Origin: Polynucleobacter sp. MG-27-Goln-C1
Lineage (GTDB): Bacteria; Pseudomonadota; Gammaproteobacteria; Burkholderiales; Burkholderiaceae
Assembly: GCF_018881905.1 (NCBI RefSeq)
Contig: NZ_JACVPM010000004.1
Span: forward strand, 1 to 64,000
Direction of reading: 5' to 3'
DNA: 64,000 nt
The position numbers were made by a program, and so were the translations under genes. Below are positions 8,735-32,145 of this stretch, piece after piece. The notes beneath the pieces were generated by a model that ran no database searches, was not told the origin of the DNA, and was given only the letters and a program-made list of their open reading frames with translations. Positions within the stretch are counted from its first letter, which is position 1; every line of letters begins with the position of its first letter.

Positions 8735-8743
8735 GATTGCCCC

Positions 8744-9193: not shown

Positions 9194-9325
9194 GAGCGCT
9201 CTCCTTAGTGTTCTTGTAATGAAGTCTCATCCATCAGATAAAGACCCTGCTTTTGTTGTGTTTATCTTAACCAAGAAATAATTTATTGCTATGCAACATA
9301 TATTGCGGAGCAGTAAGATCAGACG

Positions 9326-10401: not shown

Positions 10402-10464
10402 CAAAGCTAATGCAACTTTATAGGGATATAGTTGGGCGCAGTGCACCAAGAAGGCTCATCTGCT

Positions 10465-10488
10465 CCCTTATTAGCCCCCTTATTAGCC
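10465..10488 (+). repeat. Two tandem copies of a 12-bp unit
   Basis: CCCTTATTAGCC occurs twice back to back in the 171-base gap between the LrgB-like gene and the transporter binding protein. It is about 85 bases upstream of the latter's start. It could be a duplicated regulator site or simple slippage. The rest of the gap shows no clear terminator. Confidence 0.5.
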
Positions 10489-10572
10489 CCATAACTCAGA
10501 GCAAAAACACGAGCTTGCTTTAAGCTGACTTTATTAGCACCCCTTTTTTACCCAACACCAAAGAACACTGAC

Positions 10573-15992: not shown

Positions 15993-17546
15993 TTATGCCA
16001 AATCAATTAGTGCTGATCTTAGGACATCATCACCAAATACTTTAATTTGATTGCGGCCAGATGATTTTGCCTCGTACATAGCTATGTCGGCATTATTGAT
16101 GAGATCAGTTTCGTTTTGGCCATGATCGGGATACAAGGCAATACCAATACTGGCGCTAGTACTTAAACTTACGCCTTCGACATCAATTGATGCGGTTAAA
16201 GCTAGACGAATTTTTTCCGCTATCTGGAATGCTTGAGTTTCTGAGTCTACGCCGGGCAATAGCAGCACAAACTCATCTCCCCCCAAGCGCGCAACAGTAT
16301 CCGAGTCACGGACACAGCCCTTCATCCTGCCGGCAACCTCCTTCAACAAAGCATCGCCAGCATTGTGACTATAAATATCATTGACTGTTTTTAAATTATC
16401 CAAATCGACAAACAGAATGGCTAACTTAGATTGCTGACGCTTGCTAACCGCTAGAGCTTGCTGCAAGCGATCAGAAAACAGTGTTCTATTCGGTAGTTCA
16501 GTTAATACATCATGATGCGCACGATATTGTGATTCTGCATTTCGACGATATGATCTGAGCAACAAAAAGGCACCGATAATCAGCGCAATCAAGCTTAGGC
16601 CAGTTGCCACAAAAATCCCGACAGCATTCTTATTCAAGTTTGCTAAATACAGTGACTCAGGAATAACAGTGCCAACGATGAGTGGGTAACCCTTAACCGC
16701 CCTATAGGAAACCATCCGCTCTACAGGACTCTCATTTTTACGAGTAAAGCCAGGGCCTGAAGCAAAAATGACACCACCATTCACATCGACGTTCTTTAAT
16801 GAATCATCAATAAAAGTATTTGGATTGGTTTTTCCAATTAAATTCTCGACCAAGGGCCAACGCGTCAAAAGTGTTTTATCTTTTCGATACAAAGTTAAGG
16901 CTGCGCCCTCACCCAAATTTCCACCAATCCGCTCGTAGAGGGAAGAGAATACTTCCACTGAAACACCTACTAATACCACCCCCAAGAACTGATCATTCTT
17001 GCCGTTAATCCTACGAGCAAGATAAAAAACCCACTTCCCGTTACCCTTGTTACGCACAGGAACGCTGTAATAGGTGTCAGGATCATTATTAACGCTGAGA
17101 TATTTGAAATAATCTCGATCAGCTAAGTTAATTGGCGGCGGTGGATAGGAGCGAGAAAAATTCAATACCTTGCCATCAGCCGCTACAAAGGTACTTACAT
17201 CGAGAATGGAATTAGAGCTTGTGCGCTCCTCAAGTAAATCAAATTGAGCCTTTTTAGAGGCAAATTCTTGATAGGATTTTTCATCGCCAATCTTGGCGCG
17301 CTCCAAAACCTCCTGAATACCCAGCAAGGCGGTGTTTGCTGAAAACATCGTCTGCGAAGTATGCTCAGCCAAAATGATGGTTAAGTTGGCAAGTTGATCA
17401 GATCGATCTTGAATACTATTTTTACGCAGCAAATAAGAAGAGACCATAGCGTTTGCAAGCAGTATTACTGCCAGCACCAATGCTGCAAATACGATTAATC
17501 TCGTATTGCGCTTAATAGTTGAATTGGATTCAAAGCTAATGGTCAT
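15993..17546 (-). CDS. Diguanylate cyclase with periplasmic dCache-like sensor
   Basis: A 517-residue inner-membrane protein predicted to make cyclic di-GMP from two GTP. TM1 is at about 17-38, a large periplasmic Cache-type sensor at about 40-305 (SRSYPPPPINLADRDYFKYL is the typical Cache loop), TM2 at about 308-331, and the GGDEF domain follows to the end. The active-site loop GGDEF is at 422-426 and an inhibitory-site RxxD (R413-D416) lies five residues before it, so product inhibition is expected. It starts within the stop of the upstream HD-GYP gene (ATGA overlap), so a synthase and a phosphodiesterase are made together. The pair lies next to the cellulose genes. Confidence 0.94.
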   Translation of the reverse strand: MTISFESNSTIKRNTRLIVFAALVLAVILLANAMVSSYLLRKNSIQDRSDQLANLTIILAEHTSQTMFSANTALLGIQEVLERAKIGDEKSYQEFASKKAQFDLLEERTSSNSILDVSTFVAADGKVLNFSRSYPPPPINLADRDYFKYLSVNNDPDTYYSVPVRNKGNGKWVFYLARRINGKNDQFLGVVLVGVSVEVFSSLYERIGGNLGEGAALTLYRKDKTLLTRWPLVENLIGKTNPNTFIDDSLKNVDVNGGVIFASGPGFTRKNESPVERMVSYRAVKGYPLIVGTVIPESLYLANLNKNAVGIFVATGLSLIALIIGAFLLLRSYRRNAESQYRAHHDVLTELPNRTLFSDRLQQALAVSKRQQSKLAILFVDLDNLKTVNDIYSHNAGDALLKEVAGRMKGCVRDSDTVARLGGDEFVLLLPGVDSETQAFQIAEKIRLALTASIDVEGVSLSTSASIGIALYPDHGQNETDLINNADIAMYEAKSSGRNQIKVFGDDVLRSALIDLA

Positions 17547-18853
17547 GGTGCGTCGCTATACATTTCAGAGATACGCAAAAAGTTTTCCTTTTCCTGTATA
17601 AATGCTTCAACCACCAAGGGATCGAAACGCTTTCCTTTAAGGCTGGTTATTTCAGCGCAGGCCTCATCATGAGACCATTCCTTTTTATAGACGCGCTCAT
17701 TAACTAAAGCATCGTAGGTATCAGCCAAGGACATCAAACGGGCAGCCAAAGGTATTTCCTCTCCCTTAAGCCCCTGCGGATATCCAGAGCCATCCCAGGC
17801 CTCATGATGACATCCCGCAATTTGAATGGCGGCATCTAATACATGGGTATGTTTTGCATCCTTTAACTTTGCCGCAGTTAAGACATCCCGCCCAAGGCCA
17901 GCATGGGTTTTCATAATCTGCCACTCTTCATCCGTTAGGGAGCCCGGCTTCTTGAGAATGGTGTCTGGTATTCCTACCTTGCCAATATCATGCAAAGGCG
18001 CTGCTTTAACAATGTAGTCAATTGCCTTTTCGGAAAGCTGATCCTCATAAACGCCAGTAGCCTTCAATCTCTCAGCAAGCGCACGCACATAATTTTTAGT
18101 GCGAAGAATGTGATTCCCAGTTTCATTATCACGAACCATCGAGAGCGCATTTAGGCTATTGAGCATTCCATCTTCAATAGCCCAAGAGCTCCGTCTATAT
18201 TCATGCAATACCTTTTCAAGGTAATAGTTGGTGATGAGGATACAAATAGTAGCAAGCGCAAGTATTGAGACGATGCGCATAGCAAAGGCCCAACCCCCTT
18301 CTTGATAGAAACCCCCAAAAAGTTCAGATTCGCCAAGTGTTAATAGTGACCGGCTTACGCGAGCACCGAACTGAATTACCTCAACCATAATTAACAACTT
18401 GATTTGATAGGCGCCATCTTTTTTATGCAACTGGCTAAGAACGGCAATCTGCCAAATGCAGAAAATACCCAGAACAATATTCATCAAATGAATACGGTCT
18501 TGCGGTGTTCCAAAAAACTGCAGAGAAATATCCGCTACTGAAGCCGTAGCAAACAAAACTATCGCAAGCACCTTGTTTGATTGCGTGAGGGATTTATTCC
18601 AATAACAGAACAATAAAGAAATATTGGCTGCACCGGCAACCAAGAAAATGTTTGCCAAAGCCAAAACACCCTTGCCACCCCATGGTGCAATAGCATATCC
18701 CAACATAGAGACTGCTAAAAAGCTCAAACCTGCGGGCCAATAAATTGACTTGAAGTGAGCGCGATCATCGTCCTTACTTGCCAAGAATCGTGCCATCAAT
18801 CCAACTAGGACGATGAATATGGCGATGTAAAAGGTTTGATTTGCTAACTGCAT
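17543..18853 (-). CDS. Membrane HD-GYP cyclic-di-GMP phosphodiesterase
   Basis: A 436-residue protein. Roughly the first 210 residues form seven or so membrane helices; the rest is an HD-GYP domain. The metal-binding HD is H288-D289 (LHDIGKVGIPDTIL) and the signature GYP is at 357-359 (DGSGYPQGLKGEEIP), both intact, so hydrolysis of c-di-GMP is expected. The N-terminal membrane module is not one I can name and could sense a small ligand. The gene begins 83 bases from the divergent bcsZ and overlaps the following GGDEF gene by 4 bases. Confidence 0.94.
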   Translation of the reverse strand: MQLANQTFYIAIFIVLVGLMARFLASKDDDRAHFKSIYWPAGLSFLAVSMLGYAIAPWGGKGVLALANIFLVAGAANISLLFCYWNKSLTQSNKVLAIVLFATASVADISLQFFGTPQDRIHLMNIVLGIFCIWQIAVLSQLHKKDGAYQIKLLIMVEVIQFGARVSRSLLTLGESELFGGFYQEGGWAFAMRIVSILALATICILITNYYLEKVLHEYRRSSWAIEDGMLNSLNALSMVRDNETGNHILRTKNYVRALAERLKATGVYEDQLSEKAIDYIVKAAPLHDIGKVGIPDTILKKPGSLTDEEWQIMKTHAGLGRDVLTAAKLKDAKHTHVLDAAIQIAGCHHEAWDGSGYPQGLKGEEIPLAARLMSLADTYDALVNERVYKKEWSHDEACAEITSLKGKRFDPLVVEAFIQEKENFLRISEMYSDAP

Positions 18854-18936: not shown

Positions 18937-19950
18937 ATGACTTGGCCTACCACCCTTAGAACCTGGCTTTTGAGTTTCACTCTAGTGCTCGCTCACCCAG
19001 CGATAGCGCTCGCTAGCGAGGATTGGGTGCAATTCAAAACGGCCTACATTTCAAATGGACGTGTAGTTGATGTTGGCCAGAATGGCATTAGCCATACAGA
19101 GGGTCAAGGGATGGCTTTGCTTCTGGCTGTTCAAAATGATGACCCAGCCTCCTTTGCTGAAATCTGGAATTGGACTCAAGCAAATCTACAAGTTCGTGAT
19201 GACAAGCTATTTGCCTGGAGCTGGTCTCCCAAGGTAGGCGTCAATGACATAAACAATGCTAGCGATGGTGATTTATTTATTGCTTGGGCCTTATCGCGTG
19301 CCTACAGTCAATGGAATGAGCCCCGCTATTTATTTGCTGGGATTCAAGTAAGCCAATCCATTCGAAATAAGCTCTTGCGTAAAACGAGTAAGGGGACCGT
19401 TCTACTCCCCGGAGCCGTCGGCTTTGAGAAAGAAGATGTCTTAAAACTCAATCTCTCCTACTGGGTCTTTCCTGCAATTAAGGAGCTCTCTATTCTTGAT
19501 CCATCCCCAGACTGGGAGGACTTAAGAGTGACCGGCCTACAGCTGATTAAAGAGTCTCGATTTGGGAAGTGGCATTTGCCGCCAGATTGGATAAGTTTGC
19601 AAAATAACGTCATTAGCGCAGTTGATGGCGATCGATTTGGCTACGATGCCGTCCGCATTCCTTTGTATTTGATTTGGGGTCAGGAGGCCACACCTTCTTC
19701 TATAAATCCTTTTCAAAGCTTCTGGGGCTCATTTAATGGGAAAGCACTTCTACCCGCTTGGGTAAACCTCGATACGGGCGAGATAGCCACGTACAATGCA
19801 TCTATAGGTTTTAGAAGTATTGCGGACCTTACGCTGGCCTATCCAAATGTAGATTCAACTCAATTACCCAGTTTCAATCCATCTGAAGGCTATTACTCCT
19901 CCATGCTGTACTTATTTACAAAATTAGCTCTCGAGGATCTCAAAAAGTAA
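18937..19950 (+). CDS. bcsZ: Endo-1,4-beta-glucanase of the cellulose locus (GH8)
   Basis: BcsZ is the periplasmic glycoside hydrolase family 8 cellulase that accompanies bacterial cellulose synthases and trims or edits the exported chain. The 337 residues begin with a signal peptide (to about ALAS). The proton-donor glutamate is E55 in SHTEGQGM, the same number as in E. coli BcsZ, and the substrate-site aspartate is D110 in NNASDGDLFIAW. It starts the rightward bcsZ-bcsG unit, divergent from the HD-GYP gene, and is followed by bcsG after one base. Confidence 0.95.
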   Translation: MTWPTTLRTWLLSFTLVLAHPAIALASEDWVQFKTAYISNGRVVDVGQNGISHTEGQGMALLLAVQNDDPASFAEIWNWTQANLQVRDDKLFAWSWSPKVGVNDINNASDGDLFIAWALSRAYSQWNEPRYLFAGIQVSQSIRNKLLRKTSKGTVLLPGAVGFEKEDVLKLNLSYWVFPAIKELSILDPSPDWEDLRVTGLQLIKESRFGKWHLPPDWISLQNNVISAVDGDRFGYDAVRIPLYLIWGQEATPSSINPFQSFWGSFNGKALLPAWVNLDTGEIATYNASIGFRSIADLTLAYPNVDSTQLPSFNPSEGYYSSMLYLFTKLALEDLKK

Positions 19951-19951
19951 T

Positions 19952-21496
19952 ATGAGAATTTGGGCTTTTTATTTCATCATCAAAATTATCCTGTTTTATA
20001 CAGGCTATGTTAATTTTCATTTTTTTGTTAATGCTGCTTTTGCTCTAGCTTTAATTTTCTCCAATGCGAATCCTCGGTTATTGCAGATTCGAAAATGGCT
20101 GGCTATACCTGTCGGTATCGTTTTATTTTATTTTGACAGTCAACTCCCGCCTTTGCGTAATGTCATTCCAAAGATAGGTCAGCTACTTGACTTTAGCTTT
20201 CAGTACTACGTAGAGCTCTTGGCGCGCATTGTGAGCTGGGAAGTCATTGCAATCCTGGTGGGCTTATATATTGCGTACTATCTTCTTTCCAAAAAGTTGC
20301 GCATGTCAACAATTGCCGTAATTGCAATTTTGAGTACCCTGCTTCCACTCAAAGCAAATATGTCGCCTCTAGCCTACGATGCCGATGGTCAAGTAATTGG
20401 GTTGCCTAGTGATGTCGAACTCACTGAATCACTAGATGGCTTTTTTATTGAAGAATCCTCTCGTACCGCATTTAACCGTTCGCAAAAGGCTAATGGCGCT
20501 CCATTTGACATCCTTGTTATCAATGTCTGCTCTCTGGCTTGGGATGACCTGAAATACATCAAAGAAGATAACAATCCACTATTCAAGCGCTTTAATTATT
20601 TATTTACCAGCTTTAATTCGGCTTCTTCCTATAGCGGACCGTCAATCATTCGCTTGTTGCGCGGTAGTCGTGGTCAGCAAGACCAACGTGATTTATACAA
20701 ACCGCCCCTTCAAGATTCTTTGCTATTTAGCAACCTCAACAAAACTGGATATCAAGTACAGCTGGCCTTGAATCATGATGGTAAATACGGGGATCTTCTC
20801 AAAGAAATCAGAAATGAGGGCGGTATGTCTGCCCCGCTATTTGATAACACTCACGCTACGCCTTATTTAAAAGGCTTTGATGGCTCTCAAATTTACGATG
20901 ACTACTCCGTGCTATCTAATTGGTGGGATGCGCGCATGAAATCCCCAAATGAAAGAGTTGCTCTGTTTTACAACACGATTACATTACATGATGGCAATCG
21001 TGCACTGGACGGCAGCAAGCTAGAGAATAGCGTTGAGACCTATTCACGTAGAACCCAAAAATTATTAGCCGATCTTGATCGCTTCTATACAAAAGTGAAT
21101 AGCTCTGGGAAGCAAGTGATGATTGTTTTTATTCCTGAGCATGGTGCAGCGATTCGCAGGAATAAGAATGAGATTGTGGGTATGCGAGAAATTCCAAGTC
21201 CCAATGTAACCAATGTTCCAGTCGGAATCATGTTTACAGGTAAGGCGGATGCGCCAGTCAAAACCAACATCATTGAGCTACCGACGAGCTACCTTGCCAC
21301 ATCCGATTTAATCTCTAAATTTGTGGGGAAAACGCCATTTGGAGCAGCGGCTCCTTCACCTGAATCCTACTTAAAAAATATTCCGAGCACGCGCTTTGTG
21401 GCAGAGAATGAAGACTCCATCATCATGAAATTTGGGTCTTCCTACTACTTCCGCTCTAACGACATCAACTGGAATCTATTCGAGGCTAACGATTAA
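19952..21496 (+). CDS. bcsG: Cellulose phosphoethanolamine transferase BcsG
   Basis: BcsG transfers phosphoethanolamine from phosphatidylethanolamine to cellulose in the periplasm, producing pEtN-cellulose and diacylglycerol (established for E. coli and Salmonella). The 514 residues have about four or five membrane helices in the first 135, then the alkaline-phosphatase-like domain. The zinc-ligand cysteine (C193 in VINVCSLAWDDL), the nucleophile serine motif ASSYSGP (224-230) and the zinc Glu-His pair (E397-H398 in IPEHGAA) match the known BcsG active site. E. coli also needs BcsE and BcsF; neither is seen here. The TAA stop overlaps the convergent stop of the small TPR gene. Confidence 0.93.
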   Translation: MRIWAFYFIIKIILFYTGYVNFHFFVNAAFALALIFSNANPRLLQIRKWLAIPVGIVLFYFDSQLPPLRNVIPKIGQLLDFSFQYYVELLARIVSWEVIAILVGLYIAYYLLSKKLRMSTIAVIAILSTLLPLKANMSPLAYDADGQVIGLPSDVELTESLDGFFIEESSRTAFNRSQKANGAPFDILVINVCSLAWDDLKYIKEDNNPLFKRFNYLFTSFNSASSYSGPSIIRLLRGSRGQQDQRDLYKPPLQDSLLFSNLNKTGYQVQLALNHDGKYGDLLKEIRNEGGMSAPLFDNTHATPYLKGFDGSQIYDDYSVLSNWWDARMKSPNERVALFYNTITLHDGNRALDGSKLENSVETYSRRTQKLLADLDRFYTKVNSSGKQVMIVFIPEHGAAIRRNKNEIVGMREIPSPNVTNVPVGIMFTGKADAPVKTNIIELPTSYLATSDLISKFVGKTPFGAAAPSPESYLKNIPSTRFVAENEDSIIMKFGSSYYFRSNDINWNLFEAND

Positions 21497-21867
21497 GGTT
21501 TAGCTGCAGGCCAAAGAGCGGGAACATCTACTCCTTCTTCCGCAGTCACTGTATTACCGAGCGCATCCAGATAAATGGGCTCACCATTGATCTGAATAGG
21601 CGCCTTTGCTTGATCAATCTTTCGAACCACCTCTAAATTGGCTTTGATATCAGGGCTATTGGGATTTAAGAGATATGCCCTCTCTAGCAAAATGATCGCA
21701 GTAGAGACATCGCCGTCTTTCAATGCATAAAGTGCGCGCTCATTTAATTCCCCGGGAAGGTAGGGATCAAATTGAGGGGTAAGAGTCGACGACTGGGCTC
21801 TTAGCAGAGCGCTAGCTAGCAAACCCATTACCAGAAATAAGCAAGAGAGTGAGGTGCGATTGTTCAT
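21493..21867 (-). CDS. Small exported TPR-like protein of the cellulose operon
   Basis: A 124-residue protein with a signal peptide (cleavage near LRAQSS) and one TPR-like helical pair (ALYALKDGDVSTAIILLERAYLLNPNSPDIKANLEVV) followed by a short tail. It is the last gene of the long minus-strand operon, 14 bases after bcsC. Its single TPR pair resembles those of BcsC, so it may be a periplasmic helper of the export complex, but I do not recognise a named family. Confidence 0.7.
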   Translation of the reverse strand: MNNRTSLSCLFLVMGLLASALLRAQSSTLTPQFDPYLPGELNERALYALKDGDVSTAIILLERAYLLNPNSPDIKANLEVVRKIDQAKAPIQINGEPIYLDALGNTVTAEEGVDVPALWPAAKP

Positions 21868-21881
21868 GATCTACAGTTCAC

Positions 21882-24800
21882 TTAAAAGCGGGATGTTGGG
21901 ATGACCGGTTGTGTCTGCAAGGCTACAGGCTGCGGCGCAGTGCCATCGAGTGAAATCCGTACATACAACACAAAACTATTTGGGGCGTAATACGGGGAAC
22001 GCTCTAACTTCAAGCGATTACCAACAAATACCGACGGGGTAACTTGATACTCCCATGCCGCCAAAGCAGAGTAAGCGCTACCCGGTCCAGAACTCGCAGA
22101 ATAGTAAGGATTTCCTGCGGCAGCCTGATAAGCAGAATTTGTAGGGAAATAAGGTGCAGCATCTGTACGAGACCAGTTACTTGAAACCGATCCACCGATC
22201 ATGTAGGAGAAGCGTGAAAAACGCTGTGCATAGTTTAAGGGTAGCGTTACGGAGCGATAGCTTTGCGGACTGTAGTAACCACCCTGCCCATAAGTAAACT
22301 CACCTGCGTTTTGCTTAAAGCCCCATAACATTCCATTAAGGCCGCTCGAGAGTTGACGATCCGTTTCATTAATAATGCGCCAATTTAATCCAGCCATAAA
22401 TTGGTTATCACTATTGCTTTGTACGTTTGTTCCAGTGAGGCTACGTGCTCGGTAATAAGTCCAGCCACCCAGAGTGCCGCCTTGATCAAGACTTAAACCT
22501 ATCGTTCCGCCGGTAGCAACCATTCCACCCCAGATAGACCCAGTAACAGGATCACGAGTTCCAGCATATGAGAGCAATGTACTCGTCATAGGTCGACGAG
22601 CAAGCTCTAATGAAACTCCAACAGGACCTACATCCAACTTCTGCTTCACACCACCAATCCAATTTTGCGTGAGAAAACCAAGTGGTGTTGTACCTATATC
22701 GGCTTTGAAGTTTTGCTTTTCATATCCAATATTGAGAGCAGTTCCTGAGGCGGACTGATTTGAGAAGCTCGTTGGGCAATTACTTGTACATGCAGCCATT
22801 GAACCAAAAGTGCTGACCTGATAAGCATTGCCTGCATTCAGAGTGCCTGCATTGATGTTGACTTGGTCGGCACGGAAAGTAACTCGCTCATCAGAGCGCA
22901 TCGGCATCTTCCATTCGAGCGGAATCTCGGTAGCGCGGTAATAGGACTGTCCAGGAGTGCCATTAAGTGATAGGTAGTCAACAGCGGAATCAATCCAATT
23001 GGTCCGCATATCAATCATGTCGGCCATCTGCTTATATTGGTATGCACTTCCTGAAGCGGCAGCAGAGGGCTCAAAAATGGGTGGTTCGATCTGGAATACA
23101 GAGACTCCAGATGGGCTTGCACTTGGCTTGAGCGTAGAGAGGCTGTGATAACTTGAGAGTGGCACTGGAGCTTGAGCAAGCGCGCGCTGCTCAGTGTCGA
23201 TTGCCTGATCCAAATAACCCTCTCTTCTCTGGATCTGGCTATCCAAATACATCAACTTGTAGTTATTTGTTTTAGGCGCAGCAGAAATGAGGGGCTGTAA
23301 CTTTTGCTTAGCCGATTGAATTTCACCAGACTGAATCAGTTGCCCAATCGCCCTGAGCTCAGAAGCCTGCTGTAGACCTAAATAGTCTTGTTTTTGAGCT
23401 GCGCTTAACTTTACTCCAGATAGCAGAGTCATCTCTTTCTGGAAAGCCTCTGGCTGCTCGTTGTTGAGTAGGTAATTTGCATAGCGTAAATGCCATTCAA
23501 CCGAGAGATTTGGATTGCTTTGCTCAATATGCTTAAAGAGTGCATCGGCTCGCTTCACATCACCGATAGAACCCCACATTGCAGCAACTAAGGAGGAAAG
23601 ATCGGGGTCGCTAGATACTTCATTCTCAAGCATGCTGAGCTGAGTCATCGCTTTAGCCTGTTCTCCCTGCGCATACAGCTTCTTGACTTGAGCAAGCTGT
23701 AGATCTACCCAAACACCTCTTTGGAAGCGAGTGATCTTCGGAGTGCGTTCAGATGCCGGAATGCGCTCCAATACTTTGAGAGCTGCTTGATTCTGATCTA
23801 GACCAGATAAATACAGGGCATAGGCGTATAAACCTTCAAGGCTATTAGGATGCGATTTCAAATACGATTCAAATACGGCGATGCCCTCTTTTGGGCGATG
23901 CATTTTTGCATAAAGACGGGCTAAATCTAAGCGCAGCCAGACCTCATCCTGATCGAGCGCAATTGCCTGATTCAATAGTGCTATCGCCTTTGGGGTATCG
24001 CCTACTTTCAACGCCTGTCGAATATCGAAATCAAGCTGGATCTGAGTAAGCTTGAGCTTATCACTCGCCGATAAGCGCGTTTTGGACAGCTGCAGCAACA
24101 CGGGGCTAAGTTCTTCATCTCGCTGCAAACGATTAAGCACATTGGCATACGTTAAACGGAGTGATGTGGCATCAGATGATGGTTTTGCCAGTGCACTGCG
24201 CATGAGATTTAATGCATCTTCTGTCTTGTCAGCGCTTAGCAAGAACAATACATTCGCATTGATCATCTCGGGATCATTTGGGGCAAGCCGCAAGCCCTCT
24301 TTCATCACGAATAAACCTTTGTCGACTGAACCTGATTCCTCATAAATTCCAGCTAGCTGAAAACGTAACCAAGGATTAAGTGGTTCCAACTTCATGGCGC
24401 GCAATAGATAAGGAATTGCTGCCTCACTTTGACCCTTGCTGACTAAGTCATCTGCCTGCGAGCTCAAAATCTTGACTCGCAAATAGTCGTAGCGCTTACC
24501 TGCAGGAGTATTTTCAGGGGCTTGTGAATTAATCAATGCTAAGGCTTCATCACTTTTGCCAGCGTTAATTAAAAGTTGAATCAAACCCCGAATAGCAATA
24601 CCGTTGTCCGATTCAATAGCCAAGGCTGCTCGAAACTGCTTTTCTGCTTCACGTGCATTGCCCCGATCGGCCTCAACTGTTCCCAATACTGCAATAGCTT
24701 CTGCACCTTGAGGCTCCAGGGCAATTGCTACCCTGATCTTCTCCATTGCTAATGGATAGTTTTTCTTATCCCTCGCGTCTTCAGCCTGATGAATTTGCAT

Positions 24801-25649
24801 CCAATACTGACTAGTAGCGATAAGACTTTTCCACTTGCCAGCATTCTCGGGATTGAGCGCCAAGGCTTTCTGATAATAAGCAACAGCTTCTTCATACTGC
24901 CCTTGCCTCATCCGAATCAAGCCCATGCCACCCAAAGCCAGATAATCCTTTGGCAAGGCCTTCAGAGTCTCAGTCAGTTGCACTTCGGCCCCCGCAATAT
25001 CACCCTTATCCAATAAATCCAAGCCGATCTGACGACGTTTTAAGAGAGGATCGCTATCGATACGCTTGCGCTCAGCCAGCGTATCCTTCTCCGCCATCCA
25101 GCGACCTGTAATTTCTTGATTGTGTGGGTCTACTGCAAGATATTTTTCATAAAACGGGATCAACTCCGGGCTAGCCTCTTGCGCATTAAGCACTTCCCTC
25201 CAAACCTGAAGTACTCGCTGCTTATCGACTTTACGCTCTTGGTATAGGTTGGCTAGATTCGCAAAAGCAAGCTCACGAGTCTCCATCTTTGATCCTAATA
25301 AGGCATCCAAAGCCAAGGAGTACTGCAAGTTTTTGCGGTCAGATTTGACTAAACCCTCCAACCCCGTTCGCGCCTCATCCCAGCCACCCGGTAAAGCAGC
25401 AATGATTTTGTAATAGCCAACCGCTAGATCGCCCGCGGGTGGCCCATTAGGAAACTTTTCCTTGAGTAAAGCATTTGCCTCGGCAGGCTTACCACTTTTG
25501 AGAAGAATGGTTGCCTGAGTCAAGAACCTTCTAGCCTCCATACTTTCTTGCCTGCTGAGACCTTTGTCCGAAGCGAAGGCAAGACCTTCAACCCCCACCG
25601 AAGAAATCAGTAAGAAGCTGAAGCAGAGATGAAGTGCTTTTGAATTCAA
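21882..25649 (-). CDS. bcsC: Cellulose export protein BcsC (TPR scaffold plus outer-membrane barrel)
   Basis: BcsC guides cellulose across the periplasm and outer membrane. The 1255 residues comprise a signal peptide (to about FAS), a long TPR solenoid (about 35-830, with canonical repeats such as ALGGMGLIRMRQGQYEEAVA) and the BcsC C-terminal barrel domain from about 870. It ends in a strand with terminal Phe, as outer-membrane proteins do. The size is close to the family norm. The only plausible start is TTG 25649, 5 bases after the bcsA stop, with no ribosome-binding site, so it probably depends on coupling to bcsA. Confidence 0.94.
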   Translation of the reverse strand: MNSKALHLCFSFLLISSVGVEGLAFASDKGLSRQESMEARRFLTQATILLKSGKPAEANALLKEKFPNGPPAGDLAVGYYKIIAALPGGWDEARTGLEGLVKSDRKNLQYSLALDALLGSKMETRELAFANLANLYQERKVDKQRVLQVWREVLNAQEASPELIPFYEKYLAVDPHNQEITGRWMAEKDTLAERKRIDSDPLLKRRQIGLDLLDKGDIAGAEVQLTETLKALPKDYLALGGMGLIRMRQGQYEEAVAYYQKALALNPENAGKWKSLIATSQYWMQIHQAEDARDKKNYPLAMEKIRVAIALEPQGAEAIAVLGTVEADRGNAREAEKQFRAALAIESDNGIAIRGLIQLLINAGKSDEALALINSQAPENTPAGKRYDYLRVKILSSQADDLVSKGQSEAAIPYLLRAMKLEPLNPWLRFQLAGIYEESGSVDKGLFVMKEGLRLAPNDPEMINANVLFLLSADKTEDALNLMRSALAKPSSDATSLRLTYANVLNRLQRDEELSPVLLQLSKTRLSASDKLKLTQIQLDFDIRQALKVGDTPKAIALLNQAIALDQDEVWLRLDLARLYAKMHRPKEGIAVFESYLKSHPNSLEGLYAYALYLSGLDQNQAALKVLERIPASERTPKITRFQRGVWVDLQLAQVKKLYAQGEQAKAMTQLSMLENEVSSDPDLSSLVAAMWGSIGDVKRADALFKHIEQSNPNLSVEWHLRYANYLLNNEQPEAFQKEMTLLSGVKLSAAQKQDYLGLQQASELRAIGQLIQSGEIQSAKQKLQPLISAAPKTNNYKLMYLDSQIQRREGYLDQAIDTEQRALAQAPVPLSSYHSLSTLKPSASPSGVSVFQIEPPIFEPSAAASGSAYQYKQMADMIDMRTNWIDSAVDYLSLNGTPGQSYYRATEIPLEWKMPMRSDERVTFRADQVNINAGTLNAGNAYQVSTFGSMAACTSNCPTSFSNQSASGTALNIGYEKQNFKADIGTTPLGFLTQNWIGGVKQKLDVGPVGVSLELARRPMTSTLLSYAGTRDPVTGSIWGGMVATGGTIGLSLDQGGTLGGWTYYRARSLTGTNVQSNSDNQFMAGLNWRIINETDRQLSSGLNGMLWGFKQNAGEFTYGQGGYYSPQSYRSVTLPLNYAQRFSRFSYMIGGSVSSNWSRTDAAPYFPTNSAYQAAAGNPYYSASSGPGSAYSALAAWEYQVTPSVFVGNRLKLERSPYYAPNSFVLYVRISLDGTAPQPVALQTQPVIPTSRF

Positions 25650-25654
25650 GGGGG

Positions 25655-28396
25655 TTACTTGCCTACAGTTTTAGATGACGTTGCAAGACTCTTGCGTTCA
25701 TCAGCCAACTCACCAGCGAGAAAGAGATAGGACAGAATTCGTCTTAAATTCTGAATGGCAAGTGAAAACACCATTTTTGATCCTTGACCATAAACAAAGC
25801 TCACGATCTTGAAGAAATTACTGTTATCTACGATAAATTCAGCGCCTAAGATCACCTCATCGCCATCCTTAATGACACGACGAATAATGCAATCCATCCG
25901 ATGCTGATCTCGTGTGATGCCAGAAACAAAGACCTCAATCAACTCATTATCATTAATCAAAAAGGGTAAATTAACCTTGATGCCCACCCCAGTGAGAGAG
26001 ATATCAAAAGCCCAGCCTTCCAAAGTAGCGTCTAGCTTGGGGAAATAGACTGTCACCATCTGCCCAGCCTGTAAACGAGGGAATGATCTGGCCTGCTGAT
26101 GATCCACCAGGCTAATGGTATGAACTACAGATAAATAAAATAAATAAATAATCCAATTCGCCAGCCCCGTAAACGCATAAATCCAGAAATATGGATTGAA
26201 TAACATGATGACGAAAGTGCCGATACTTTTTGAGATGTACTTAAAGTAACCCGCAGAATTTTCACGAACTGCCCGAAGCCCCAACTTTGTTAATAAATAT
26301 AACTGAAGCTTTGATTGCTTTAATTGCGCGCTAGCATCCCAGATGCGCTGCCAGCGGCCACTATCACCGTAGACAAAAGCTATCGCCTCTGGGCTAGCAG
26401 TTTGTTCGGCAATAAATTGGGTGCCGCAGAAATAATGCTCGCTTTCTTTCTGCATGCGTACCACCTTGGCATCAAATGAATAATGGTTGCCGTAACTATC
26501 AGCAGTAGACAATCTCACCAATTCACCGGCTGTCAGTTTGGTATCTAGTGGCAAAGTAAAGCCAATGCCACTAACTGAAACATCAGCCAAGCTTGCCTCA
26601 ATTGGCGCTTGTTCCGAATGAGCATCACGATGAATTGTGACAGTACCACCACCGCCAATGCGGTAATGAGCTCGAATCTGACGCTTTTCCCAAAAGGCTC
26701 CTAGCGACATCAAACCTAGCCATATATTGATACAGCACCATATTGCCGTAATAATGATGTTGTCATGCCAAATAGGTTCGTAATGCCAGCGTACTGCGGC
26801 AATGCCTATTGAAATTACGTTAATACTGACCAAAATAAACAGTGGGAATGCATCCCAACTGAGCTGCTCTTTTTCCAATAAGAGACCCTTTGGTGTTACT
26901 AAGAACTTCTGCTTCCAAGGGTTCAGAAGAACTGGCATAAGCTCTCGAATCATCCTAAAACCTTTTACGGTCTCGTAAATTTCGGAGAAGAAAATTTGAC
27001 GTGACCCTGCAAAGAAATAAGAAATCACCACGAGAATACTTAAAGCATAAGGCACCGTGAAATCTACCATCTCATGCCAATTAGCTGAGTAGACATTCAA
27101 GCCTAAGATCAAGAAGGCAGAGGGCGCTAAGAAGAAAATATAACGCGCAAATCCAAACAGCCAAGAATAGGATGATGAAAAATAGGCCAGACGCTGAGGC
27201 AGACTCAGTCCTCGCATAAATAAGGGGTTGTAATGCATCAAGATTTGTAGCATCCCCTTTGCCCAACGAGAATGCTGAGTTAAGTAATCCGAAGGAGTCT
27301 CTGGAGATAACCCACAAACCATGGGTTTATTAATGTAGCTACTGTTATAGCCATGCGCATGCAGAATGAGTGAAGTCTCGCAATCCTCTGTAATGGTCTT
27401 AATGGCGATTCCGCCAATCTGCATTAAATACTCGCGACGCAAAAGAGCCGCAGAGCCACAGAAGAAAGCAGAATTCCAAAAATTCATTGCCGGCTGAATT
27501 TTCCGATAAAACATCTCACTTTCATCTGGACGGTTAGATATTCCAGTGATCACGTTGTTTACTGGGGTCTCATTGATGAAGAAGTGCGGCGTTTGAACTA
27601 AGAACATTTTTGGATCATCAATGAACTGCCCTACCGTATTGCTCAAGATATCTTTTGTAGGAACTTGATCGCAATCCAAAATTAAAATAAGGCTGCCATT
27701 GCTATGCTGTAATGCGTGATTGATGTTTCCTGCTTTAGCCTTCTGATTGGTATCGCGCGTGATGTAGTGAACACCAAGATCTTTAGCAAGCCTTCTCAGG
27801 CTATAGTGGCGTCTCCAGGCTTGATGGCCAGTCTCTTTGCTACGACGCTTTGCATGAGTTCCCCCATCATCCAAGATATAGATGTTGAGCTTGTCTTTAG
27901 GATATTGAATCTGAGTGGCTGCCATCACCGTCATACGGACAATGGCTTCAGATTCATCGTAGGTGGGAATAAAAATATCCACAGAAGGATACGACGACTC
28001 ATCTTCAGGCAATGGGATGATTTCACTAGACATGGGTGAAAAATTCACAAACATATCCAGCAGGAACAAAGAGAATCCATAGCACTCAGCCAAAAACAAT
28101 AAGGCCATACCAATGAAATCAAAAAATCCGGTATACATTAGGGTATCAAAAATACGCCATGCCATATAGCGGCAACTAACGAATAGCGCTAAAACAATAA
28201 ATAGCGATCTCCAAGGTTGATTACGGAAATACTTCACCTTAGACATTAAAAAAATAATACAAAATGATCCCCACCCCAGATATAACTGGCCACCAAAATT
28301 GAGTAATTCTTCGGCGAAGAAAATCATCAGGCCGATGCCCAAGGCAAAAGATATGAGACTTGCCGTGATTCTGAAGTGACGATCGCGTAACAACAT
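25655..28396 (-). CDS. bcsA: Cellulose synthase catalytic subunit BcsA with two PilZ domains
   Basis: BcsA polymerises UDP-glucose into beta-1,4-glucan and threads it through its own membrane channel. Numbered from the ATG at 28396 (913 residues), the glycosyltransferase residues are DD at 176-177, DCD at 241-243, TED at 336-338 and the QxxRW motif at 374-378. Eight or more membrane helices surround the domain. Two c-di-GMP-binding PilZ domains are visible. The first is at about 570-680 (RAHYR at 575-579, DVSVSG at 605-610). The second is at about 768-880 after extra membrane helices (RSFPR at 770-774, DISLTG at 798-803). The usual BcsA has one. ATG 28396 overlaps the previous stop as TAATG. 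GTG 28429 and ATG 28423 are alternative starts. No bcsB follows. Confidence 0.95.
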   Translation of the reverse strand: MLLRDRHFRITASLISFALGIGLMIFFAEELLNFGGQLYLGWGSFCIIFLMSKVKYFRNQPWRSLFIVLALFVSCRYMAWRIFDTLMYTGFFDFIGMALLFLAECYGFSLFLLDMFVNFSPMSSEIIPLPEDESSYPSVDIFIPTYDESEAIVRMTVMAATQIQYPKDKLNIYILDDGGTHAKRRSKETGHQAWRRHYSLRRLAKDLGVHYITRDTNQKAKAGNINHALQHSNGSLILILDCDQVPTKDILSNTVGQFIDDPKMFLVQTPHFFINETPVNNVITGISNRPDESEMFYRKIQPAMNFWNSAFFCGSAALLRREYLMQIGGIAIKTITEDCETSLILHAHGYNSSYINKPMVCGLSPETPSDYLTQHSRWAKGMLQILMHYNPLFMRGLSLPQRLAYFSSSYSWLFGFARYIFFLAPSAFLILGLNVYSANWHEMVDFTVPYALSILVVISYFFAGSRQIFFSEIYETVKGFRMIRELMPVLLNPWKQKFLVTPKGLLLEKEQLSWDAFPLFILVSINVISIGIAAVRWHYEPIWHDNIIITAIWCCINIWLGLMSLGAFWEKRQIRAHYRIGGGGTVTIHRDAHSEQAPIEASLADVSVSGIGFTLPLDTKLTAGELVRLSTADSYGNHYSFDAKVVRMQKESEHYFCGTQFIAEQTASPEAIAFVYGDSGRWQRIWDASAQLKQSKLQLYLLTKLGLRAVRENSAGYFKYISKSIGTFVIMLFNPYFWIYAFTGLANWIIYLFYLSVVHTISLVDHQQARSFPRLQAGQMVTVYFPKLDATLEGWAFDISLTGVGIKVNLPFLINDNELIEVFVSGITRDQHRMDCIIRRVIKDGDEVILGAEFIVDNSNFFKIVSFVYGQGSKMVFSLAIQNLRRILSYLFLAGELADERKSLATSSKTVGK

Positions 28397-29088
28397 TATC
28401 GATATACCAAATATATGAGCCATGCCCACAGTGCTTCATAACCCACAGTAAGGAGAAGCACCCCAAAGAAAAGCAACGCAATACTGGCCACTAGCTTCAA
28501 GCCAAAGGAGCGAATAGGTTGTATTTCCAAATCAATTGCGTTGGGGTCTTTATCCAACTTACCCAGATCTACTTCAGTTGGATTCCAAAATATCTCGTAG
28601 GCATTCAAGGCCCTATCTTCGCCAGTTCGTAGAAGCTGCCTTGTAAATCGACAAAGCAGTGATTTTGGATTTTTTAGCAAGGCGTATGCGCCTTCGGAGA
28701 GATAAAGTTCTCCAGCACCAGCAGCGTCAGCCAAAAAGTGAGCTAACTGAATTGAACGCTCCTCTTCCTTAAGGCCGGTAAATGGGTTTATCAGGGAGAC
28801 AATCCCGATAGAGACTAGGCCTATAGGAGTCAAATGATTTTTTGCATTTAACGCATCCACCTCTATTTGAATAGCCATAGCGGCTTGTGTTGCGAAGCTA
28901 ACTTGTTCAAAAGCAAAGATCATTTTTTCGGAATGCTCTTCAAATGCTACCCCACGAAAATCTTTACAAATCCTTGCGATCAAACTTATCAGCTTCTCGT
29001 TAACGGCGTTTTTAGATACCTCATCCGATGACTCCACATCATTCCTAGGAATAATATATGTACAGAAGGCGCTTAAAAAATTTCCCAT
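28396..29088 (-). CDS. Degenerate class III cyclase-like domain with C-terminal membrane segment
   Basis: A 230-residue protein between dgkA and bcsA. Residues about 30-150 follow the pattern of a class III adenylate/guanylate cyclase domain: QAAMAIQIEVDALNAKN, PIGLVSIGIV, RSIQLAHFLADAAGAGELYLSEGAYALL. The metal-binding aspartates and the usual GD and GDxVN signatures are missing, so catalysis is unlikely. One or two hydrophobic segments near 197-230 anchor it in the membrane. It overlaps dgkA by one base and bcsA by one base, so it is made with the synthase. A binding or regulatory role for BcsA is an inference from position only. Confidence 0.7.
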   Translation of the reverse strand: MGNFLSAFCTYIIPRNDVESSDEVSKNAVNEKLISLIARICKDFRGVAFEEHSEKMIFAFEQVSFATQAAMAIQIEVDALNAKNHLTPIGLVSIGIVSLINPFTGLKEEERSIQLAHFLADAAGAGELYLSEGAYALLKNPKSLLCRFTRQLLRTGEDRALNAYEIFWNPTEVDLGKLDKDPNAIDLEIQPIRSFGLKLVASIALLFFGVLLLTVGYEALWAWLIYLVYR

Positions 29089-29432
29089 TAAAAATAGGGT
29101 GACAGGTAACGTATAAAAATTAGTCCAATTGCGACAACAATGATCATGACCGCTGCCGCACCAAGATCCTTAATTTTCTTAATTTCCGGATGCTCTTCCA
29201 GGGTGATCAGGTCACATATTTTTTCGATGGCTGTATTGAGAGCTTCAACTGCTAGCAAGACCAAGGATAAAACGGCAACTAAGACGGTATAGACATTCGG
29301 GCGATAGCAAAAAAAGCCAATGGCGATCGCAGCCAAAACTAGCTCTCTACGTGCAGCCTTTTGCAGTGCGAGCTCTTTGAAGCCATCAACTGCATTGATG
29401 GTTGCATGAATAATATTTCTTTTTTTTTGCAT
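29088..29432 (-). CDS. dgkA: Diacylglycerol kinase
   Basis: DgkA is a small trimeric inner-membrane enzyme that phosphorylates diacylglycerol to phosphatidic acid. The 114 residues hold three membrane helices and the signature EALNTAIEKICDLI with E63, N66 and E70 corresponding to the catalytic and metal residues of E. coli DgkA; the preceding ARREL (28-32) matches the conserved Glu of helix 1. The gene sits inside the cellulose operon, between a GGDEF gene and the cyclase-like gene. As BcsG releases diacylglycerol when it uses phosphatidylethanolamine, recycling of that lipid is a natural role here. Confidence 0.93.
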   Translation of the reverse strand: MQKKRNIIHATINAVDGFKELALQKAARRELVLAAIAIGFFCYRPNVYTVLVAVLSLVLLAVEALNTAIEKICDLITLEEHPEIKKIKDLGAAAVMIIVVAIGLIFIRYLSPYF

Positions 29433-29470
29433 TACTATAGTTTTTATTTGGACCTCAAGCTATTTTAAGC

Positions 29471-30295
29471 CTATTCAGCCCAGATCTCAGTACGATTTCG
29501 ACCCCCTGACTTAGCCTGATACATCGCATCATCTGACATTTTGAAAAAACGCTTCAGAATGACTGCTGAATTGGTTTCACCTACTAAACTTGGATTAAAT
29601 GTCGCTATACCCAGGCTAATAGTGATCGATATGGTTTGAGCATATCCAGCGGCTGTTTCAGTGGCTGAAACGTGCTTGCGCAATCTCTCGGCTAACTGAA
29701 AAGCATCATGCCCAGAGCTCTCTGGCAACACGACAAAAAACTCTTCCCCACCAACCCTGCCAAAGATATCGATTGCTCTGAGCTGCTCCTGACAGCATTT
29801 CACTAGATTAACCAATACAGCATCCCCAATTAAATGCCCATATTGATCATTTACATTCTTAAAGCAATCAATATCCAGCATCAAAAAAGAAATCTCATGT
29901 CCAGTTCGCAAGCTCCTTTTGATTTCCATCTCAGCCCTAGAAAAGGTTTCTCGACGAGAGAGCGCTCCTGTTAGCGAGTCTACTTTTGATAGTTGATCAA
30001 GAATGCAATTCTTCTCTTGAAGCTCAACCAACATCTTTTTTAGCTGGTACATTCCCAGCAAAAGACAAAGCGAGATCGGCATGGAAAGTATGGCATCAGG
30101 AAGGTTAATATGCCCGTTATTTAGAACATGTAATAAAGGGGATATCCGCCTCCCCACCATTAAACCAAGTCCTAGAGCTAAGAAACCGCAAGCTAAGCGA
30201 TATACTTTCGCGCGAAAAAATAAGTCGGCAGCGTATCCGGCGGTGACCAGCTGAAACAATAAAGAAATGGAGTAAAAGAATGCTGCTAGAGCCAT
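29471..30295 (-). CDS. Membrane diguanylate cyclase (GGEEF)
   Basis: A 274-residue protein with three or so membrane helices in the first 85 residues and a GGDEF domain from about 100. The active loop is GGEEF at 182-186 and an inhibitory RxxD site (R173-D176) is present five residues earlier, so it should be an active, product-inhibited cyclase. It follows the GAF-HD-GYP gene after 3 bases and precedes dgkA by 38 bases, placing c-di-GMP synthesis in the same transcript as the c-di-GMP-controlled BcsA. Confidence 0.93.
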   Translation of the reverse strand: MALAAFFYSISLLFQLVTAGYAADLFFRAKVYRLACGFLALGLGLMVGRRISPLLHVLNNGHINLPDAILSMPISLCLLLGMYQLKKMLVELQEKNCILDQLSKVDSLTGALSRRETFSRAEMEIKRSLRTGHEISFLMLDIDCFKNVNDQYGHLIGDAVLVNLVKCCQEQLRAIDIFGRVGGEEFFVVLPESSGHDAFQLAERLRKHVSATETAAGYAQTISITISLGIATFNPSLVGETNSAVILKRFFKMSDDAMYQAKSGGRNRTEIWAE

Positions 30296-30298
30296 GCT

Positions 30299-31522
30299 TT
30301 ATTGCGTCTCAATTAAAGCCTGCAATTCGTTGTCTGAGTTAGGTAGCTCAAAAGCTGCATCCACCACTTTTGCATCTAATTTTGTCCCAGCCTCTGCACG
30401 CACTTCATCCATGGCAGCCGACAAACCTCGTGCAGCACGATAAGGGCGGTGAGTAGCCATCGCCTCTATAGTGTCAGCGACTGCCAAAATTCTTGCTTCA
30501 GGGCAGATTTGTTCTCCCTTCAGGCCATGCGGGTAGCCACTGCCATCAAGGCGCTCATGGTGTTGCCTCACCATATCTGCAATCGGCCATGGGAATGGAA
30601 TGTCTTTAAGGATTTGATAGCCCGACTCTACATGGCCCTGAACCATTAGCATTTCTAGATCGGTCAATCGAGTGGGCTTGGTCAGAATTTCTGATGGCAC
30701 CGCAACCTTGCCTATGTCATGAACCATCGCCGCCATATAAAGCGCTTGAATAGAAGTATCGTCCCAGCCCATTTTCCTAGCAATCGCAGTGGCGATCGAG
30801 GCCACTCTCTTTTGATGACCCGCCGTATACGGATCGCGCCACTCCATTGTTCTGGCCATAGCCTCGATGGTTGCTTTGAGAGCATCAGCCAGGCGCTCCT
30901 GTGTTTGCTCTTTTTCGTGGATCTCGTCATCCAGCTTATGTTGGCGCTCGATAGACCTCAGGCCAAACCCAATTTCTTTTGCCAGACTTTCAAAGAGCTG
31001 AACCTCAGATTCACCAAAAGCATTTGGCACCTTTGAATAGACCAGCAAAACACCGAAGGGATGGAGTTCTCCATCAGGTATTGGGCAACCTACAGCGGAG
31101 CGGATGCCAAATTTTCGAGCCAACTCACGCCAAGAGATAAAACCTTCATCCAACTCCGAGTCCACCACAACACTAGACTTTCCAGTACGAATTACTAAGC
31201 CACCAGGACCCATTCCAGAAATATTTTGATCCGACCAACTCACGACTATATTTTGAATATAAGTAATGGCGGAACCAGCGCCACCCATTACCGTGATCGT
31301 CTTATTGGCATCATCTTCTGCTCTGCCAACCCATGCCAGCACGTACGGGCCTTGGGCCGCAATGGCGCTACAAACTTCTGCAATCAGCAAATCGGTAGAG
31401 TCCGCCCTAGCTAGCGCAGCCGCAGCCTCTGATAAGGCTGATAAAGCCCAGCCCCTCTTTTCCAGCTCCCTTTGTATCTCAGGTGTTGGCAGTTCGATAG
31501 GCTTTTTATTCTTAGTACTCAT
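30299..31522 (-). CDS. Cytoplasmic GAF/HD-GYP cyclic-di-GMP phosphodiesterase
   Basis: A 407-residue soluble protein, first gene of the cellulose operon. A GAF-type sensor covers about 30-195 (VGCPIPDGELHPFGVLLVYS), a short coiled linker follows (195-215), then the HD-GYP domain. The metal-binding HD is H268-D269 (VHDIGKVAVPSEIL) and the GYP motif is at 329-331 (DGSGYPHGLKGEQ). All key residues are intact, so it is expected to hydrolyse c-di-GMP. No response-regulator receiver is present. The divergent alanine-rich gene begins 119 bases away. Confidence 0.94.
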   Translation of the reverse strand: MSTKNKKPIELPTPEIQRELEKRGWALSALSEAAAALARADSTDLLIAEVCSAIAAQGPYVLAWVGRAEDDANKTITVMGGAGSAITYIQNIVVSWSDQNISGMGPGGLVIRTGKSSVVVDSELDEGFISWRELARKFGIRSAVGCPIPDGELHPFGVLLVYSKVPNAFGESEVQLFESLAKEIGFGLRSIERQHKLDDEIHEKEQTQERLADALKATIEAMARTMEWRDPYTAGHQKRVASIATAIARKMGWDDTSIQALYMAAMVHDIGKVAVPSEILTKPTRLTDLEMLMVQGHVESGYQILKDIPFPWPIADMVRQHHERLDGSGYPHGLKGEQICPEARILAVADTIEAMATHRPYRAARGLSAAMDEVRAEAGTKLDAKVVDAAFELPNSDNELQALIETQ

Positions 31523-31641: not shown

Positions 31642-32145
31642 ATGAACGACGACATCGAAAAAATTTATTCCAAATTAATTGCCCTTGAAACAGAGGTGAG
31701 CAATTTGCGTAGTGGCTATTTGGTTATTAATGCACGTTATGCCGAAGCAATTGGAAGTCTGAAGATACTGACTGCCAGCGCGCTTGAGGCCGCTAAACGC
31801 GCTGCAATAGCGGCCGAAAAAGCCTTGTTAGCAGCTAAGAGTTCTGCAACAGCAGCCAAATTAGCGGCATCAGAATCAGTTATCGATGCTGCAGAAGCGG
31901 CGGCAGATGCGGCGGCAGCATCTGCAGAAGCGGCAATTGAGGCAGCAGCAGCAGCATCTGCAGCAGCATCCGCAGCGGCAGCGGCAGTTGCCCATCAAGC
32001 AGAGGAATCCTCAATCAGAGCTTCGGCTGAAGCTGCAGAGGCTACCAAGCGTGCTGCAGACGCAGCAGCTGAAGCAGTACGAATGTCTAACCTTGCCTCA
32101 GAGTCGGCTCGTAATGCTCGCAAAAATATTCAGGCTCCAAAATAA
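31642..32145 (+). CDS. Alanine-rich coiled-coil protein of unknown function
   Basis: A 167-residue protein with no signal peptide. The first 40 residues are a normal heptad-like helix (IEKIYSKLIALETEVSNLR). The rest is extremely alanine-rich, with Lys/Arg and Glu/Ser at intervals, as in a long amphipathic or coiled helix. The core DNA is a GCA/GCG trinucleotide-like repeat around 31900-32000. It is divergent from the cellulose operon. I do not recognise a family; a structural or polymer-binding role is possible, but nothing in the sequence proves one. Confidence 0.65.
   Translation: MNDDIEKIYSKLIALETEVSNLRSGYLVINARYAEAIGSLKILTASALEAAKRAAIAAEKALLAAKSSATAAKLAASESVIDAAEAAADAAAASAEAAIEAAAAASAAASAAAAAVAHQAEESSIRASAEAAEATKRAADAAAEAVRMSNLASESARNARKNIQAPK

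Follow-up and report, generated by a model that had tools for sequence, protein, structure and literature searches.

A bcsA-bcsC-bcsZ-bcsG cellulose locus of Polynucleobacter without a detectable bcsB

BcsB is considered to be required for the activity of the bacterial cellulose synthase BcsA, and it forms the crown where BcsC docks. Here we describe a cellulose locus of Polynucleobacter sp. MG-27-Goln-C1, conserved in a group of freshwater members of this genus, that carries bcsA, bcsC, bcsZ and bcsG and for which no BcsB could be detected. The locus occupies positions 18937-31522 of the 64,000-nucleotide stretch that we analysed (assembly GCF_018881905.1, contig NZ_JACVPM010000004.1, positions 1 to 64,000; hereafter the window), and the source genome is of 2.01 Mb and 99.99% complete. 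Such a naturally occurring Gram-negative system, which has BcsC, BcsZ and BcsG and lacks BcsB, can tell which functions of BcsB are dispensable.

In vitro synthesis needs just BcsA and the C-terminal tail anchor of BcsB, and in Escherichia coli this anchor occupies a groove of transmembrane (TM) helices 1-3 of BcsA (PMC11470070). BcsA depends on BcsB for its activity, and the N terminus of BcsC binds the sixth BcsB (PMC11379886). Anchor helix, chain guidance and BcsC docking therefore need another solution in a system such as the one described here. In a published survey, apparent loss of bcsB was accounted for by BcsAB fusion (PMC7112194), and cyanobacterial loci without bcsB employ an HlyD-like protein (PMC12430437). 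BcsA and BcsC annotations have been given for one of four Polynucleobacter strains, with no comment on BcsB in the portion of that source available (PMC5018217). A keyword-bounded search of the open-access literature brought up neither a bcsB-less bcsA-bcsC-bcsZ-bcsG locus nor a BcsA with two PilZ domains.

No detectable BcsB in the locus-bearing genomes

An earlier note on this DNA, made from the sequence alone, had reported that no BcsB is encoded at the locus and had considered that bcsB could lie elsewhere in the genome. The first of these claims was upheld. The second was not, since the search of the source genome with PF03170 (the BcsB family) that the note had suggested gave zero matches, and so did this family in G407, a locus-bearing genome found by a search of the family. 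Because two PF03170-negative genomes (G306 and G182), which had been candidates for further BcsB-less relatives and were rejected as such, proved to have an ultra-divergent BcsB (~500 aa) beside bcsA, we built two wider profiles, A3 (16 BcsB rows) and A1 (5 ultra-divergent BcsB rows). Neither of them had a match at E<=1 in the 14 locus genomes (13 with an intact copy and one with a decayed copy), and A3 gave nothing in all frames of the window and of 13 fetched Polynucleobacter loci, G083 (a row of A3) being positive. A BcsB encoded elsewhere is consequently rejected for any BcsB detectable by PF03170, A3 or A1. Three control genomes were positive with A3 (3/3) and A1 (2/3), their own BcsBs being rows of those profiles; as independent controls, A3 detected BcsB in four of four genomes outside the profile and was positive at 21 of 25 bcsA loci outside it.

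Among 151 Polynucleobacter genomes BcsB was found in five (G042, G083, G094, G099 and G140), none of which is among the 13 with bcsA of the type studied here. PF03170 did not match within the BcsA chain either, where a BcsA-BcsB fusion would carry it. Of the components of a Gram-negative BcsABC(Z) system, a BcsC with tetratricopeptide repeats (TPRs) and a BCSC_C barrel is present, and a BcsB partner was not found in the locus-bearing genomes.

Outside the genus, the closest BcsAs in searches of the family and class have at most 42% identity among the matches listed, and a BcsB-like open reading frame (ORF) adjoins bcsA at all 15 fetched nearest non-Polynucleobacter loci. A further 25 bcsA loci were taken with 1.5 kb flanks, including three that the genus comparison did not need; a BcsB match was obtained at 21, and in the other four (G564, G903, G993 and G868) BcsB is encoded elsewhere in the genome. 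In a tree of 53 BcsAs, the 10 BcsB-less rows form one clade (support 100/100) with a stem of 2.12 changes per column. This clade sits among sequences from BcsB-bearing genomes, the joining fork being weak (82/53) and the root placed at the midpoint. The simplest reading of the tree is that BcsB was lost on the lineage of the BcsB-less Polynucleobacter clade.

The ORF beside bcsA at five loci (L132-L136) is an ultra-divergent BcsB of ~500 aa that PF03170 either missed or matched with 29-36 bits, and genome surveys by PF03170 will under-count BcsB.

Gene content and conservation of the locus

The features of the locus, in window coordinates, are the following.

18937-19950, plus strand: bcsZ, GH8 endoglucanase (PF01270, 207 bits; in 13 of 13 intact loci)
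19952-21496, plus strand: bcsG, cellulose phosphoethanolamine transferase (PF11658, 558 bits; TIGR03368, 557 bits, above the cut-off)
21493-21867, minus strand: small secreted-looking protein with one weak TPR and a hydrophobic N terminus (in 13 of 13 intact loci)
21882-25649, minus strand: bcsC, TPR solenoid and outer-membrane barrel, 1255 aa (BCSC_C, PF05420, 348 bits at residues 904-1233)
25655-28396, minus strand: bcsA, cellulose synthase, 913 aa from the ATG (the listed frame, 25655-28429, has 924 aa)
25658-26233, minus strand: C-terminal extension of BcsA with TM hairpin, second PilZ and helix (residues ~733-924 of the listed frame)
28396-29088, minus strand: "cyc", class III cyclase-homology domain with a C-terminal tail anchor (AlphaFold2 and Foldseek; no Pfam or NCBIfam family)
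29088-29432, minus strand: dgkA, a second, locus-specific copy (PF01219, 71.8 bits)
29471-30295, minus strand: GGDEF diguanylate cyclase (PF00990, 124 bits; in 12 of 13 intact loci)
30299-31522, minus strand: GAF-HD-GYP phosphodiesterase (PF13487, 149 bits, and PF13185; in 12 of 13 intact loci)

Profile matches support each of the bcsA, bcsC, bcsZ, bcsG and dgkA assignments of the earlier note, and the bcsG product also matches E. coli BcsG (9b8v) with E 1.3e-106 (phmmer). Every TPR match of the small protein is under the Pfam cut-off. The bcsC frame begins with TTG at 25649 and bcsA ends at 25655, which gives the spacing of 5 bases already described. The stop codon of cyc and the ATG of bcsA at 28396 overlap by one base (TAATG, minus strand); because the junction reads in this way, that ATG is most likely the true bcsA start, and the protein would then have 913 aa instead of 924. 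In G148 a stop interrupts the longer bcsA frame at residue 9, after which TAATG follows as in the window, and this bcsA is counted as intact because the stop precedes the likely true ATG. Residue numbers of BcsA refer to the 924-aa frame. Models for BcsD, BcsE, BcsF, BcsQ and BcsR had no match among the scanned locus proteins, the rest of the genome not having been searched for bcsD, bcsE or bcsQ, nor short ORFs for bcsF or bcsR. Scans for tandem repeats, promoters and terminators yielded nothing of use.

A bcsA of this type (80-100% identity, nearly full length) is carried by 12 of the 151 Polynucleobacter genomes, one further genome of this set (G105) has a decayed copy, and G407 adds one more locus. 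The 11 fetched orthologous loci, G407 and the window make 13 intact loci, intact referring to gene content. Comparison of gene order in related genomes, which the earlier note had called for, showed bcsZ, bcsG, the small TPR gene, bcsC, bcsA, cyc and dgkA in identical order in all 13, and the view that this set is an unusual class gained support. The GGDEF and GAF-HD-GYP genes are absent from one intact locus (G038). In Polynucleobacter sp. 80A-SIGWE (L052), whose BcsA is 94% identical, the nine genes are identical in order, and no BcsB was found within the 22.8 kb stretch, the genome not having been searched.

Alternatively, the locus may be a decaying remnant, or the maker of another glucan. 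In G105 (L049, ~10.1-15.8 kb) bcsA and dgkA are broken, the sole trace resembling bcsC is partial and weak (34-35% identity), and bcsZ, bcsG and the small TPR gene gave no match. In G098 (L046) the bcsC at 7700-11458 has an in-frame stop, real or a sequencing error, at residue 778 in an otherwise conserved locus. The long stem of the BcsA clade points the same way. On the other side, BcsZ and BcsG are retained, synteny is conserved, the catalytic and PilZ motifs are invariant and the ratios of nonsynonymous to synonymous substitution rates (dN/dS) are low among 12 genomes, so we regard this explanation as very unlikely. Median dN/dS was 0.036 for the BcsA core, 0.048 for its extension, 0.117 for the first PilZ domain (PilZ1), 0.040 for dgkA, 0.110 for cyc and 0.126 for the small TPR gene; these medians come from 36-55 of 66 pairs with computable dS and are rough because the proportion of synonymous differences (pS) is near saturation. 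The extension is under purifying selection.

As to the surroundings, five c-di-GMP (cyclic dimeric GMP) turnover genes lie around the cellulose locus within 20 kb, three GGDEF and two HD-GYP (15993-17546, 17543-18853, 29471-30295, 30299-31522 and 34110-34979), the last being called GGDEF solely from its ORF and a weak similarity to other GGDEFs. The GAF-HD-GYP gene is retained in G105 at 77% identity. An alanine-rich protein without a Pfam family (31642-32145) is often kept next to the locus, and a protein 63% identical to it is encoded next to the canonical bcs genes of G083. Also beside the locus, 15195-15965 encodes a protein with an FGE-sulfatase domain and a hydrophobic stretch near its N terminus; this gene was rejected as an obligatory partner, having no match in four of the 11 fetched intact loci. 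In G083 (L051) a canonical bcsAB lies within ~15 kb of the alanine-rich, HD-GYP, FGE and helicase neighbours seen at the window locus, as if the BcsB-less and canonical bcs types were common to one chromosomal region.

BcsA with a C-terminal extension and a possible route without BcsB

BcsA passes TIGR03030, the model of UDP-forming cellulose synthases, with 722.8 bits (cut-off 699.1), and the alignments contain all the motifs DDG, DxD, TED, QxxRW, FxVTxK and PilZ RxxxR/DxSxxG. The motif names follow in part PMC10237404. Judged by its sequence, this protein is a bona fide cellulose synthase. Its AlphaFold2 model (mean pLDDT, the per-residue confidence score, 77.4) aligned by VIA-align to 4p00_A with Z 43.0 and a root-mean-square deviation (rmsd) of 2.8 over 697 aligned residues (26-728), and to E. 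coli 9b8v_E with Z 42.0 and an rmsd of 2.7 over 676 (27-732).

The alignments to solved bacterial BcsA chains stop at model residues 728-736, leaving ~733-924 outside. In the model, this extension and the region leading to it contain helices 707-743 and 746-780, followed by a second PilZ with strands at 791-865 and by one more helix at the C terminus; pLDDT is ~49-67 in the hairpin (731-780) and mostly 63-81 in the second PilZ. Two PilZ stretches are recognised by Pfam in the complete BcsA, and its last 224 aa (from residue 701), taken as a fragment, match PF07238 with 24.0 bits (cut-off 22.5). RxxxR and DxSxxG are invariant in both PilZ domains (12/12 rows). The extension is present in 12 of 12 aligned BcsB-less BcsAs and in none of 13 BcsB-partnered ones, and the BcsA of G148, outside that alignment, matches the window BcsA along its whole length. 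No non-genus match went beyond query residue 745 among the matches listed (398 family, 369 class and 398 phylum genomes), and plasmid records gave no match to the extension. By hhalign, the extension including the second TM helix was tied to the TM-PilZ unit of BcsA itself (97.2%, E 4.3e-11, 126 columns; the E value is for a single template and the query profile is shallow, with an effective number of sequences of 1.4) and not to the BcsB profile (probability 0.4%), and because of this the extension is apparently an internal duplicate of the TM-PilZ unit. The idea that the extension or cyc is a hidden BcsB remnant was rejected (hhalign probability 0.4-0.5%).

We tentatively propose, at slightly less than an even chance, that the locus makes cellulose without BcsB and under c-di-GMP control, the product probably being modified with phosphoethanolamine, and that the extension (possibly with cyc) replaces the BcsB anchor and the long BcsC spans the periplasm. 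BcsA would polymerise glucose and, controlled by c-di-GMP, send the product out by way of its own TM channel. The second helix of the hairpin should run from periplasm to cytosol, as the BcsB anchor does, and because of this shared direction the hairpin is proposed to fill the anchor role in cis, coupled to a second c-di-GMP sensor, perhaps acting together with the co-inherited, tail-anchored pseudo-cyclase cyc. Without a BcsB crown, the chain would pass directly from BcsA/BcsG to BcsC, whose long TPR region would act along with the small TPR protein; BcsG would attach phosphoethanolamine, BcsZ would trim, and the extra DgkA would recycle the diacylglycerol released by BcsG.

In 10 measured orthologous ORFs BcsC has 1253-1281 aa (G148 was not scanned and G098 is not intact), and 13 BcsC-like ORFs at BcsB-bearing loci have 730-1113 aa. 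The latter come from 12 of 17 loci scanned; the other five had none, one ORF is truncated where the fetched sequence ends and several rest on weak barrel matches. Two dgkA matches were found in each of the 14 locus genomes (the locus copy of G105 being partial) and at most one in each of 10 other genomes. The transfer of phosphoethanolamine from phosphatidylethanolamine releases diacylglycerol, which is recycled by DgkA (PMC7559476), and BcsG as the diacylglycerol source for the locus DgkA would fit this. Compared with the housekeeping copy, the locus dgkA is shorter and deviates near the first acidic site, for which reason its activity is presumed rather than observed.

In its search for a different partner, the earlier note had named the cyclase-like membrane protein and the small TPR protein and had overlooked the TM hairpin and second PilZ, the distinguishing feature of this BcsA. 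cyc remains a candidate and has gained support, since it occurs in 13 of 13 locus genomes among the 151, the only other match being a weak one in G149 (E 5.9e-6). Its AlphaFold2 model (pLDDT 70.8) had as best Foldseek match the adenylyl cyclase 4wp8 (E 5.5e-5), and all 27 matches in the PDB at E<=0.001 are cyclases, the fit being loose (TM-score 0.34-0.41 on the query, rmsd 4.6-11.2). Asn and Arg of the VNxxxR segment have a catalytic role in class III cyclases. The corresponding segment of cyc is IQLAHF (VNLASR in CyaB), with Gln or Glu for Asn and Phe for Arg in 13 of 13 rows, so that cyc resembles a class III cyclase without catalytic activity. It could be a trans-acting substitute for the BcsB anchor, or activate BcsA through PilZ contacts, the extension being merely regulatory. 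The strict co-inheritance would suit such a role, as would the one-base overlap with bcsA in the window and G148 and the segment QPIRSFGLKL before the hydrophobic C-terminal anchor, invariant in 13 of 13 rows. However, the charge pattern suggests that its helix enters from the cytosol and ends in the periplasm, the reverse of the BcsB anchor, no periplasmic domain is apparent, and its dN/dS is above that of BcsA, which makes this alternative unlikely in our opinion.

The extension could instead recruit and organise BcsG, replacing the N-terminal domain of E. coli BcsA, in a BcsA that needs no BcsB. The window BcsA lacks such a domain (it aligns from E. coli residue ~140-157) and yet BcsG is present in 13 of 13 loci. 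Plant CesA is active without BcsB but assembles as trimers, which counts against this explanation, and the loss of BcsB would be left unexplained. A precedent in favour of this explanation is that in E. coli both end regions of BcsA, the N-terminal and the C-terminal one, serve to recruit a trimer of BcsG (PMC11379886). Taking both sides together, we also hold this possibility to be unlikely.

A non-homologous periplasmic protein from elsewhere in the genome might likewise replace BcsB, as the HlyD-like XcsB is proposed to do in cyanobacterial type IV loci (PMC12430437). The conserved block holds no such periplasmic gene and the flanking FGE-domain gene gave no match in four of the 11 fetched intact loci, and we consider this explanation rather improbable.

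Several points weigh against the proposal that the extension takes over from the BcsB anchor. Neither the extension nor cyc has sequence similarity to BcsB (hhalign below 1%), so that anchor replacement is argued by analogy only, and the hairpin is modelled with such low confidence that its packing against TM1-3 is not readable. BcsAs outside the sample or the matches listed may have both the extension and BcsB. The pairs behind the dN/dS values have near-saturated pS, and PilZ1 is less constrained than the core. E. coli BcsC, which works with BcsB, has a model length of 1157 and is only ~100 aa shorter, so the length of BcsC is weak support. To these are added the possible service of the extension in BcsG recruitment and the possible non-homologous periplasmic partner encoded elsewhere.

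Comparison with known cellulose systems

The locus may represent, though this is more doubtful than the mechanism proposed above, a BcsB-independent and BcsC-dependent exporter in which a duplicated TM-PilZ unit provides BcsA with an anchor helix, with two c-di-GMP sensors and no periplasmic crown. In any case, it offers a compact natural construct for studying the activation of BcsA, the coupling of BcsC to the inner membrane and the purpose of the BcsB crown, an example of a synthase with two PilZ domains, and a genomic association that ties DgkA to cellulose modification.

The cyanobacterial type IV system (XcsA/XcsB/TolC) likewise has a PilZ synthase without BcsB, but its proposed model involves an HlyD-like protein and TolC (PMC12430437), in place of which BcsC and BcsG are found here; no HlyD-like partner was found among the scanned locus and flanking proteins, the remaining genome not having been searched for one. 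The BcsA-BcsB fusions of Komagataeibacter and Zymomonas (PMC9318390, PMC7112194) also lack a separate bcsB gene and carry BcsB within the BcsA chain, whereas the window BcsA shows no BcsB domain. The BcsA-like orphans of pseudomonads lack PilZ and have a GH17-type domain (PMC10237404), unlike the present locus with its BcsC, BcsZ and BcsG and two PilZ domains.

The canonical bcsAB loci of Polynucleobacter G042, G083, G094 and G099 share the genus and the possession of cellulose synthase genes with the window, but their BcsAs are only 34-38% identical to the window BcsA and BcsB is present. With the E. coli type II system, which makes phosphoethanolamine cellulose, the locus has in common BcsA, BcsC, BcsZ, BcsG and the control by c-di-GMP through PilZ. 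It differs from that system in that no BcsB was found and cyc and dgkA belong to the cluster; furthermore, E. coli BcsA has an N-terminal domain that recruits BcsG, whereas the BcsA described in this work has none and carries the C-terminal TM-PilZ extension instead.

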